The translations under genes and the position numbers were made by a program. 33,000 bases of DNA from contig CANNRA010000002.1 of assembly GCA_947507735.1 (NCBI GenBank), positions 1-33,000 on the forward strand, in the 5' to 3' direction. Positions 19,827 through 32,526 of the stretch are shown here, piece by piece. Under the pieces are notes generated by a model. That model did no database searches and was not told where the DNA came from. It worked only from the letters and a program-made list of their open reading frames with translations. Positions within the stretch are counted from its first letter, which is position 1; each line of letters begins with the position of its first letter. Source of the DNA: Actinomycetota bacterium. GTDB taxonomy: Bacteria; Actinomycetota; Thermoleophilia; Gaiellales; Gaiellaceae.

Positions 19827-20522
19827 ATGATGCGCAGGGTTGTTGAGATTCGGACACTTCTGGCGACGATGGTCGCGTTGGCCGTAGCTGTCGCACTCGC
19901 CGGTTCGGCCGGTGCTGCTCCGAAGGCCGTTGATCCCGGTCTGACCGTCTTCAAGAGCGCCAGTTGTGGTGCCTGCCACACGCTTGCCGCTGGCGGTGGT
20001 GCGGGCAAGGTCGGCCCGAGCCTCGACAAGACCAAGCCGACGGCCGCTCTCGTGATCTCGCGTGTCACGAACGGCAAGGGCGTCATGCCCTCGTTCAAGA
20101 CGCGCCTCAAGGCTGCCCAGATCAAGGCTGTCGCCGCGTACGTGACCTCGGTCGCCGGCAAGAAGGTCGCGGCTCCGGCCAAGACCACGACGCCCGCCAA
20201 GACCACGGCGCCGGCCACCACCGCCGCTTCGACGCCCACCCCGGCGCCTGCTGCAGCTGGCCCCGAGACGCTCAAGGGCGACCCGGCCGCCGGTGCCGCC
20301 GTGTTCACGTCCGCCGGCTGCGGCTCCTGCCACACGCTCGCCGCTGCCGGTGCCACGGGTTCCGTTGGCCCGAGCCTCGACGGGCGCAAGCCGACGCAGG
20401 GCGTGATCACGTCTGTCGTTCAGTCCGGCGCCGTTGCCGGTGGTTCGCAGATGCCGGCGTTCAACCTGAGCGCCACGGATCTCGCGAACCTCGCTGCGTA
20501 CGTCTACAAGTCGACGCACTGA
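19827..20522 (+). CDS. Secreted diheme cytochrome c (two cytochrome c domains with A/T/P-rich linker)
   Basis: CGACH at 19965-19979 and CGSCH at 20319-20333; signal peptide; linker KTTTPAKTTAPATTAASTPTPAPAAA; SD AGGAG just upstream. Confidence 0.92.
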   Translation: MMRRVVEIRTLLATMVALAVAVALAGSAGAAPKAVDPGLTVFKSASCGACHTLAAGGGAGKVGPSLDKTKPTAALVISRVTNGKGVMPSFKTRLKAAQIKAVAAYVTSVAGKKVAAPAKTTTPAKTTAPATTAASTPTPAPAAAGPETLKGDPAAGAAVFTSAGCGSCHTLAAAGATGSVGPSLDGRKPTQGVITSVVQSGAVAGGSQMPAFNLSATDLANLAAYVYKSTH

Positions 20523-25224: not shown

Positions 25225-25728
25225 TCAGAGCCCGACGGGGCAGTCTGCGGCGACCTCGAAGGTCGCCTCGATCTCGACCGGGATGTCGGCGTAGAGCTCG
25301 GCCGCCCCGATCGCGGCGCGGGTGTGGCGGCCGCGCTCGCCGAAGATCTCGACCATCAGATCGCTGAAGCCGTGCAGGACGTCGGACGGCGTGGTGAAGC
25401 CGGGCGCGCAGTTGACGAAGCCCTGGACGCGCACGACGCGGGTGACGTGATCGAGGCTGCCCAGGTAGCGGCGCAGCGTGCTGAGCGTGCAGAGCCCGGC
25501 GAGCCGTGCCGCGTCGTAGCCCTGGGCGATCGTCAGCTCGCGGCCGAGCTTGCCCGTCACGTAGGGCACGTTGCCGGGGCCGAGCGGGCCGTGGCCGCTC
25601 ATGAAGACGAGGTTGCCCGAGCGCAGCGCCCGGACGCGGTTCGCCTCGTCGGCGAAGGGTGGGGGCAGCTCGATGCCGAGCGCGGCGAGGCGCGCTTCCG
25701 GCGAGGCTGCGGTCGCGTCGCCGCTCAT
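25225..25728 (-). CDS. RidA/YjgF/Rid family protein
   Basis: MSGDATAASPEARLAALGIELPPP...NLVFMSGHGPLGPG...RVVRVQGFVNCAPGF...GRHTRAAIGAAELYADIPVEIEATF; ATGA overlap with the serS stop. Confidence 0.85.
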   Translation of the reverse strand: MSGDATAASPEARLAALGIELPPPFADEANRVRALRSGNLVFMSGHGPLGPGNVPYVTGKLGRELTIAQGYDAARLAGLCTLSTLRRYLGSLDHVTRVVRVQGFVNCAPGFTTPSDVLHGFSDLMVEIFGERGRHTRAAIGAAELYADIPVEIEATFEVAADCPVGL

Positions 25729-26942
25729 GCGCCCGGCTCGATCACCTGTGGCGCGCCGAAGGCCCACAGCGCCTCGGGCACGTGCACCGAGCCGTCCGGC
25801 TGCTGGTGGTTCTCCAGCACCGCCAGCACGGCGCGGCCGGTGACCGCGGTGCCGTTCAGCGTGTGCAGCGGCTCGACGCCCTTCTCGCCGCGCCAGCGGA
25901 TGCCGAGCCGACGGGCCTGGAAGTCGGTGGTGTTCGACGTCGAGGTGACCTCGCGGTAGCGGCCCTGGGACGGGAACCACGCCTCGCAGTCGTACTTCTT
26001 GGCGGCCGAGGCGCCGAGGTCGCCGGCGGCGGTCAGGATCACCCGGTACGGGATCCCCAGGTCGCGCAGCAGCTCCTCCTCGTTCGCGAGCACGGCATCG
26101 TGCTCGGCGTAGGAGTCCTCGGGGCGGCAGAAGATGAACATCTCGATCTTGTCGAACTGGTGCAGGCGGAACATGCCGCGCGTGTCCTTGCCGGCGGCGC
26201 CGGCCTCGCGGCGGAAGCAGGTGCTCCAGCCGGAGTAGCGCGCGGGCAGCTCGGCAGGATCGAGGATCTCGCCCATGTGGATGCCGGCCAGCGCGACCTC
26301 GGAGGTGCCGGTGAGGTACAGGTCGTCGCTCTCCAGCTTGTAGAGGTTCGCGGCGTCGGTGGGGAGGAAGCCGGTGCCGTACATCGCCTCCTCGCGCACG
26401 AGGACGGGCGGCAGCACGGGCGTGAAGCCCTTGCCGGCAAGCTTGGAGATCGCCATCTGGAAGACGGCGAGCTGGAGCAGCGCGGCGGCGCCCATCGTGT
26501 AGCCGAAGCGGGCGCCGGAGAGGCGGGCGGCGCGCTCCATGTCGAAGCGGCCGAGGGCGGTGTGCTCTTTCGGCTCGGTGATCGTGGGGATCGTGCCGGC
26601 CTCGCGGATGACGATGAAGTCGTCCTCGCCACCCTCGGGCACGCTCGCGTGCGGCGGGTTGGGGACGAAGTCGAGCAGGCGGTCGCGCTCGGCCTCAGCG
26701 GCGGCGATCTGCTGCTCGAGCTCCTGCAGCTCGACCTTGACGGCCTTCAGCTCCTCGAGCTGCTCGGGCGTCGGCTTGCCCTTCAGCTTGGTGCGGCCGC
26801 GCAGCTCGTCCACCTTCGGCACGAGGGCGCGCCACGCCTCGTCAGCGGCGATCAGCGCGTCGAATGCCTCGGCGGCGCCCTTGCGGGCGAGGGCGGCACG
26901 GGTGCCGGGGACGTCGTTGCGGGCAGCTCTGAGATCGATCAC
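25725..26942 (-). CDS. serS: Seryl-tRNA synthetase
   Basis: MIDLRAARNDVPGTRAAL N-terminal coiled-coil arm; TGTSEVALAG; TCFRREAGAAGKDTRGMFRLHQFDKIEMFIF; TLNGTAVTGRAVLAVLENHQQPDGSVHVPEAL. Confidence 0.97.
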   Translation of the reverse strand: MIDLRAARNDVPGTRAALARKGAAEAFDALIAADEAWRALVPKVDELRGRTKLKGKPTPEQLEELKAVKVELQELEQQIAAAEAERDRLLDFVPNPPHASVPEGGEDDFIVIREAGTIPTITEPKEHTALGRFDMERAARLSGARFGYTMGAAALLQLAVFQMAISKLAGKGFTPVLPPVLVREEAMYGTGFLPTDAANLYKLESDDLYLTGTSEVALAGIHMGEILDPAELPARYSGWSTCFRREAGAAGKDTRGMFRLHQFDKIEMFIFCRPEDSYAEHDAVLANEEELLRDLGIPYRVILTAAGDLGASAAKKYDCEAWFPSQGRYREVTSTSNTTDFQARRLGIRWRGEKGVEPLHTLNGTAVTGRAVLAVLENHQQPDGSVHVPEALWAFGAPQVIEPGA

Positions 26943-27028
26943 GGTGCGGGAAGCGTAGTGGGCCGGGCCGGTCGGCGTCGCAGCGTCACGGTTGTCCTGC
27001 CCGGCTGCGGCGGTGTACCGTCGCTGCC

Positions 27029-31260: not shown

Positions 31261-32088
31261 TCAGCCGCGGCGGGCGAGCACAGCCTCGATCACCTGGGCG
31301 ACGCCCTCCTCGTCCACCGAGGGGCAGATCCAGTCGGCGATCGCTTTTAGCCTGGGCGTCGCGTTGTCGACGGCGACGGCGTAGCCGGCCCATTCGAGCA
31401 GCTCGATGTCGTTGTCACCGTCGCCGCAGCCGAGGGTGGCTGCCTGGTCGAAGCCGAGGCGCTCGGCGACGAAGGCGAGGCCGGAGCCCTTGGTGACGTG
31501 CAGGTCGCTGAACTCGAGGAAGTGGGGGAGCGAGCGGGCGACGTGCAGCCGGCCGGCGAACAGCTCCTGCAGCTCGATCTCGAGCTGGACGACGCGCGCC
31601 TCCTCGTCCACGACGACGAGCTTGGTCGGGCGCTCGCGCAGGAACGACTGCAGCGGGCCGACGGCGAAGACGGGGATGTGCTGGAACGCGGAGTAGCGCC
31701 GCGAGTAGGCGGTCTCCTGCTCGACGTAGAGCGTGTCGTCGACGTAACAGTTGAGCGAGAAGCCCCGGGCCTCGACCGCCGCGATCACCTCGTGCGCCAG
31801 GTCGAGCGGGACGGGCTCGTGCAGCAGCGTCTCGCCGGTGACCGGGTCGCCGACCCAGGCGCCCTGGTAGCAGACGAGCGGCGCCGTGATGCCTGCGGCA
31901 AGCGCGTACGGCAGGGCCGAGCTGTACATCCGCCCGGTGACGATCAGGACGTGGATCCCGGCAGCGCGCGCAGCGGCGATCGCGGCGAGCGTGCGTGGGC
32001 GCCACGTCACATCGGCGGGCAGCAGCGTGCGGTCGAGGTCGCAGGCGATTGCCTGGACGTCAGCGGGGAAGTCGTGGGGGAGGAGCAG
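31261..32088 (-). CDS. HAD-superfamily (Cof-type) phosphatase; start inferred as CTG at 32088
   Basis: Motif I AIACDLDRTLLPAD (upstream of the listed ORF), VTGR, VTKGSGLAFVAERLG, GCGDGDNDIELLEWAGYAVAVDNA. Confidence 0.85.
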   Translation of the reverse strand: MLLPHDFPADVQAIACDLDRTLLPADVTWRPRTLAAIAAARAAGIHVLIVTGRMYSSALPYALAAGITAPLVCYQGAWVGDPVTGETLLHEPVPLDLAHEVIAAVEARGFSLNCYVDDTLYVEQETAYSRRYSAFQHIPVFAVGPLQSFLRERPTKLVVVDEEARVVQLEIELQELFAGRLHVARSLPHFLEFSDLHVTKGSGLAFVAERLGFDQAATLGCGDGDNDIELLEWAGYAVAVDNATPRLKAIADWICPSVDEEGVAQVIEAVLARRG

Positions 32089-32091
32089 GCG

Positions 32092-32526
32092 CTACTTGCC
32101 GGCGACGGCCGACACGTACGCGACGACGTCGTCAACCTGCGTGGCGCTGAGCTGGCTCGCGAACGCGGGCATCGCGCCCAGGCCGTTCGCGACGCGCTCG
32201 CGGACGAGGGCCGCATTGGGCTTCGTCTGATCCAGGTTCGGGCCGACCGCGCCGGTGGAGCCTGCGTCCTTCAGCGTGTGGCAGGCGACGCAGCCCGAAC
32301 TCGCGAACACCGTCTTGCCGGCGTCGGGATCACCCACGGCGGCAGCAGCCGTCGTTTCAGCAGCGGTGGTTGCCGTAGCGGCAGTCGTTGTCGGCGCGGC
32401 GGTCGTCGTGCCCGACACCGTCTTCGGCAGCGGCGAGACCGTCTGCTGCGTGTAGCCGCCACAGCCGGCGAGAAGCAGCGCGGCAGCAGTGACGACGGGG
32501 ATGGCGATGATTCCGATCCGGCGCAT
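32092..32526 (-). CDS. Lipoprotein monoheme cytochrome c
   Basis: Signal and lipobox MRRIGIIAIPVVTAAALLLAGCGG; CVACH at 32278-32292; MPAFASQLSATQVDDVVAYVSAVAGK. GTG start at 32544 also possible. Confidence 0.9.
   Translation of the reverse strand: MRRIGIIAIPVVTAAALLLAGCGGYTQQTVSPLPKTVSGTTTAAPTTTAATATTAAETTAAAAVGDPDAGKTVFASSGCVACHTLKDAGSTGAVGPNLDQTKPNAALVRERVANGLGAMPAFASQLSATQVDDVVAYVSAVAGK

Follow-up and report, generated by a model that had tools for sequence, protein, structure and literature searches.

Conserved non-canonical start codons and stop-coupled translation are both described in bacteria. In Streptomyces, sigR starts with GTC, or with GTT in a few species, and its weak, IF3-repressed start sets the stoichiometry of two neighbouring products (PMC5472188). 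The infC gene, which encodes IF3, starts with AUU in E. coli and with ATC in Streptomyces (PMC5472188), and in NTGA termination-reinitiation the upstream stop overlaps the downstream start or lies within nucleotides of it (PMC6728339, PMC12548453). Concerning CUG, it reportedly makes up 0.024% of bacterial starts and has 0.86% of the activity of AUG in E. coli (PMC11497404), it failed to initiate effectively in mycobacterial reporters (PMC4633059), and among 61,358 ancestral AUG starts in 36 prokaryote groups a change to CUG was inferred for only 2 (PMC5622118). No report of a CTG-start habit in the lineage studied here was found in the open-licence literature searched. The HAD phosphatase gene presented here, together with its orthologues in the GTDB family of the source genome (f1), resembles sigR in being actinobacterial and in keeping a non-canonical start over a species group. 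However, sigR is one gene of one genus, with GTC, a strong Shine-Dalgarno sequence and experimental proof, whereas in f1 the codon is CTG, several genes and the whole family are involved, and the evidence is sequence only. Like infC, the f1 genes have a conserved non-canonical codon in place of ATG, GTG or TTG, but infC is autoregulated by its own product while the f1 genes encode unrelated enzymes. The gene fits the non-canonical-start class in lacking ATG, GTG and TTG and in having a conserved codon at the orthologous start position, with initiation and IF3 repression being inferred. With the cytochrome gene upstream it fits the class of coupled pairs by the proximity of stop and start, dependence on upstream translation being likewise an inference. 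It differs from the NTGA systems in starting with CTG, and the ATGA, GTGA and TTGA variants are absent family-wide at this locus; the source-genome sample contains 44 ATGA, 61 GTGA and 10 TTGA pairs.

The locus lies in a window of 33,000 nucleotides (the whole stretch of DNA analysed) from a draft assembly of 2.16 Mb in 233 contigs, and its features are collected in Table 1. The cytochrome carries a lipoprotein signal (LLLAGC) and a CVACH haem motif. A second coding stretch resembling this cytochrome was observed at 20004-20522 on the plus strand of the window (GPSLDKTKPTAALVISRVTNGKGVMPSF). The HAD gene is co-directional with the cytochrome gene, its CTG starts 3 nt past the TAG, and no Shine-Dalgarno sequence is visible before this CTG at the source locus. 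Reading on from the TAG, the codons are CGC CTG CTC CTC CCC CAC GAC TTC CCC GCT GAC GTC CAG GCA ATC GCC TGC GAC CTC GAC, and the phosphatase N-terminus, together with catalytic motif I, is encoded in these 20 codons. The original prediction had claimed that motif I lies upstream of every ATG, GTG and TTG of its frame and that the in-frame TAG doubles as the cytochrome stop. Both claims held: the frame is open from the TAG (32094-32092), the motif-I Asp precedes any standard start, and the first claim is supported by the sequence, the coding score, the PF08282 match and the conserved N-terminus. The coordinates that it gave for the TAG, the CTG, an ATC in the same frame (32049-32047, minus strand) and GTG 32010 all held when the sequence was read again.

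Table 1. Features of the cytochrome-HAD phosphatase locus (positions in the window).
Feature	Coordinates	Strand	Evidence or remark
c-type cytochrome gene	32092..32526	-	PF13442 (5.9e-13), PF00034 (6.5e-8)
TAG stop of the cytochrome gene, which also closes the HAD frame on its upstream side	32092..32094	-	sequence
CTG, proposed HAD start, one codon past the cytochrome stop	32086..32088	-	sole NTG between stop and motif I; orthologues
Cof-type HAD-IIB phosphatase from the proposed CTG, 275 codons and stop	31261..32088	-	PF08282, TIGR00099
HAD motif I core DLD (nucleophile Asp at 32040-32038)	32032..32040	-	sequence and orthologue alignment
GTG, earliest ATG/GTG/TTG of the HAD frame, judged not to be a start (would delete motif I)	32008..32010	-	

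Extended upstream to the CTG, the protein matches PF08282 from model position 1 (E-value = 2.7e-56), and begun at the CTG it scores 178.6 bits with TIGR00099, against a cut-off of 137, over model positions 2-256 of 256. It matches the Cof-type HAD-IIB phosphatases of these two models over its full length, motif I included; compared with them the enzyme is ordinary and only the start codon of its gene is unusual. The codons between the TAG and GTG 32010 score as coding in a coding-potential measure. One could argue that the true start is GTG 32010 or another internal site, in which case the protein would be truncated and the coding sequence before that site a relic, and this GTG is indeed the first standard start in the frame. 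However, the truncated product would be without the nucleophile Asp, the upstream region is conserved as protein with synonymous variation in about 60 genomes, and the GTG itself is not conserved. We consider this explanation very unlikely.

The original prediction had proposed comparing the start codons of orthologues, and this was carried out. The HAD gene was found in 67 of 103 f1 genomes, and start regions were read in f1 and in two sister families of the same order (f2 and f3). Sixty f1 loci from about 25 genera, in which the gene directly follows the cytochrome gene, were counted. All data are genome sequences, mostly MAGs, and the rows are related by descent, so the counts are not independent events. 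The N-terminus is conserved across orthologues as LPxxFPxxVxAxACDLDRT. In the stretch from the cytochrome stop to the LP motif, ATG, GTG and TTG are absent in 59 of the 60 f1 loci; CTG is present in this interval in 47, being the first possible codon in 40, and 38 show a CTGA stop/start overlap. Of 15 sister-family loci with the same gene order, 14 carry ATG or GTG at the corresponding position, as illustrated by GTG ACG CTG CCC in L029 (sister family) and CTG ATC CTT CCG in L005 (f1). The absence of a standard start exceeds chance (59/60 f1 against 1/15 sister loci, Fisher p = 4e-13, a test that ignores kinship), although the rows are related by descent. In the sister family f3, locus L095 (genus g41) has the HAD gene with CTGA and without a standard start, and the non-standard HAD start could possibly have arisen more than once.

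A sequencing error, which the original prediction had left as an alternative, or an assembly error can be all but excluded. In its favour, the source genome is a draft in 233 contigs, and another draft, G094, is full of apparent frameshifts. Against it, about 60 genomes assembled separately show the absence at the orthologous locus, CTGA stands at the place equivalent to the source CTG in the nearest relative (80% identity), and CTG recurs in recF, purL and ymdB. Genome G094 (L097-L116), in which many genes have apparent frameshifts that are probably long-read indel errors, was rejected as unfit for start-codon statistics. The other alternative of the original prediction, in which the gene starts at CTG through coupling to cytochrome termination, is the one that the orthologues support best, with initiation being inferred and no experimental data at hand. 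Beyond what had been predicted, the feature is common to the whole family and to several genes, and a minority of the f1 HAD genes is also without CTG.

Specifically, both CTG and the standard starts are missing from the interval in 13 of the 60 f1 loci. In nine of them GTA overlaps the cytochrome TAG (GTAG), namely in eight species of genus g32 (L065, L066, L069, L037, L040, L063, L064 and L019) and in L008, while L004 has CTAG and L009, L011 and L082 are also without an NTG codon in the interval. In g32, L004 and L008 the HAD gene is intact and conserved despite having no NTG before its N-terminus, and starts at GTA, CTA or GTC in these loci are a possibility that remains unproven. The g32 genome G033 carries CTG at the recF (L345) and purL (L328) starts. 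Concerning the CTGA overlaps, the base preceding TGA is C in 38 of 38 cases, over six different last codons, while the third bases of the same cytochromes are C in 52% and G in 40%. The last codon is GGC in 30 of the 38, and this shared descent lowers the weight of the figure; CTGA arises easily from a last codon ending in C, so the pattern is partly one of descent. In four f1 loci (L001, L015, L032 and L079) the HAD frame is that of the cytochrome and CTG follows the stop in each, where it is not forced, because there is no overlap. A second explanation would be that re-initiation beside a stop takes any triplet (CTG, GTA, CTA, GTC or CTC) and that CTG is common merely through the TGA overlap. 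It is supported by the species with GTA or CTA overlaps and their intact HAD genes, and by the GTC or GTT starts of Streptomyces sigR (PMC5472188). Yet GTGA, ATGA and TTGA would be expected if the identity of the codon were free, and only C is seen before TGA; CTG is also conserved at purL, and at recF where no stop overlaps. We regard this explanation as unlikely.

A third explanation is that the phosphatase is fused to the C-terminus of the cytochrome through stop-codon readthrough or ribosomal frameshifting, and needs no start codon. The lack of a standard start, the adjacency of the genes and the -1 frame of HAD relative to the cytochrome in 50 of the 60 f1 loci speak for it. Against it, the relative frame varies between species (0, +1, -1), even between the source locus and its nearest relative L002, and the cytochrome is a predicted exported lipoprotein whereas the phosphatase is of a soluble cytoplasmic type. 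Additionally, the same N-terminus occurs in genus g11, where the cytochrome is absent and the start is standard, and the start column of purL shows CTG without an overlapping upstream gene. This explanation, too, appears very unlikely. Genus g11 is nested inside f1 and its HAD gene has ATG, GTG or TTG at the start position; the cytochrome gene was not found upstream of HAD there. On the HAD protein tree, a single switch to the non-standard state at the root of f1 and a single reversal in g11 are required. The standard start of g11 in the absence of the cytochrome gene offers indirect support for a dependence on upstream translation, which is inferred without reporter data.

Further CTG starts were sought by a coding-potential scan of 707 kb of the source genome (675 predicted genes), seeded with the HAD orthologues and looking for coding signal that begins before any standard start, together with a table of stop/start overlaps. 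An earlier seeding was dropped, as it picked antisense shadow ORFs. The candidates were ymdB, purL, recF, lgt, a JAB-domain gene and a Nudix gene, and orthologues were read for the first five. In recF, the start column has CTG in 26 of 32 f1 loci against none of 18 in the sister families, and CTG is also retained in loci with a more distant dnaN stop upstream of it (L343, L351, L355 and L361). In the source genome (L121, minus strand) and in L339, dnaN ends with TAA and not TGA, so that the CTG becomes CTA, followed by ATC (TAATC); the source-genome recF may start at either of the two. In purL, f1 has CTG in 23 of 32 loci and TTG in nine, while CTG occurs in 0 of 18 loci of the sister families. 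A TANNNT box lies 6-8 nt upstream in 26 of the 32 f1 loci, and its spacing is as expected of a leaderless mRNA, so that purL is apparently leaderless. In ymdB, CTG occupies the f1 start column in 16 of 33 loci (GTG 7, ATG 6, TTG 2, CTC 1, ATT 1), whereas the sister families are standard in 17/17, with no CTG. The CTC and ATT were each seen in a single species (L240 and L242). The lgt gene has CTG in two species of the source genus, placed in the source genome 8 nt after GGAGG, and standard starts in other genera; the JAB-domain gene has CTG in the source genome only, with GTG at or beside that codon in other genera. CTG thus sits exactly where other species have ATG, GTG or TTG in several genes, whose contexts include stop-coupled, apparently leaderless and Shine-Dalgarno ones. 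The Nudix hydrolase frame (L126:1791-2255) has no ATG, GTG or TTG in its first 80 codons, and an ATC after GGGAG is a possible start. In the window, a weak coding signal (score 6.4) at 25728-27017 on the minus strand reaches back about 25 codons beyond the first standard start and could conceivably mark another non-standard start.

CTG was not enriched behind Shine-Dalgarno sequences or -10 boxes in the 707 kb of the source genome, where ATG and GTG dominate, and with these tests being negative it is not a general substitute start. As a rough figure based on only a few genes, the candidates amount to about 0.5-1% of the sampled genes, compared with the 0.024% of CUG starts reported for bacteria (PMC11497404). 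GC content fails to separate f1 from the sister families, and avoidance of GTG in the first codons was dropped as evidence because the outgroups show it too. Concerning the initiation machinery, an altered anticodon arm of the initiator tRNA was rejected, as most f1 genomes carry the canonical one; the incomplete source assembly gave no exact match, but both other genomes of the same genus have it. Loss of IF3 was ruled out, its gene being present in f1. Several IF3 residues differ consistently between f1 and the sister families. In the column that we take to be that of E. coli M135, 14 of 17 outgroup rows but none of the f1 rows have M, and in the one that we take to be that of D122, 15/15 f1 rows have A. 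These f1-specific substitutions are a correlation only, and a possible lead.

The reading that we prefer is that CUG serves in f1 as a minor but functional start codon and that the HAD gene is translated by termination-coupled re-initiation. We consider it likely, at a probability of about 0.75, in the absence of protein or ribosome-profiling data. The sequences and their conservation are shown, while the steps of translation are inferred: ribosomes finishing the cytochrome at the UAG would re-initiate at the CUG, fMet-tRNA would read this codon, and the closeness of the stop would stand in for the missing Shine-Dalgarno sequence. The weak start would probably hold the phosphatase low relative to the cytochrome, and this low output, itself inferred, may be selected, as shown for sigR, since the absence of better start codons is conserved at the locus. 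The HAD locus would then be one case of a wider family property, with CUG fixed at HAD, recF, purL and ymdB, and at lgt in the source genus. Points against this reading are the 13 f1 loci without CTG, the weakness of CTG in E. coli and its failure in mycobacterial reporters, and the lack of genome-wide enrichment. A bolder reading is that of a relaxed initiation code, in which altered initiation machinery makes CUG a regular low-efficiency start, perhaps along with GUA, CUA, AUC and AUU next to a stop, in about 0.5-1% of the genes, core genes among them, which would then be mis-annotated. Taken as one joint claim, we can neither favour nor dismiss it.

A family with CTG at recF, purL, ymdB and HAD over many genera offers a natural system for studying how the ability of IF3, initiator tRNA and the 30S subunit to tell start codons apart evolves. 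It would also follow that gene callers place the starts of such genes wrongly; the HAD protein, if begun at the first standard start, would be missing its catalytic residue. If the bolder reading is true, annotations limited to ATG, GTG and TTG would wrongly truncate or extend genes of f1.
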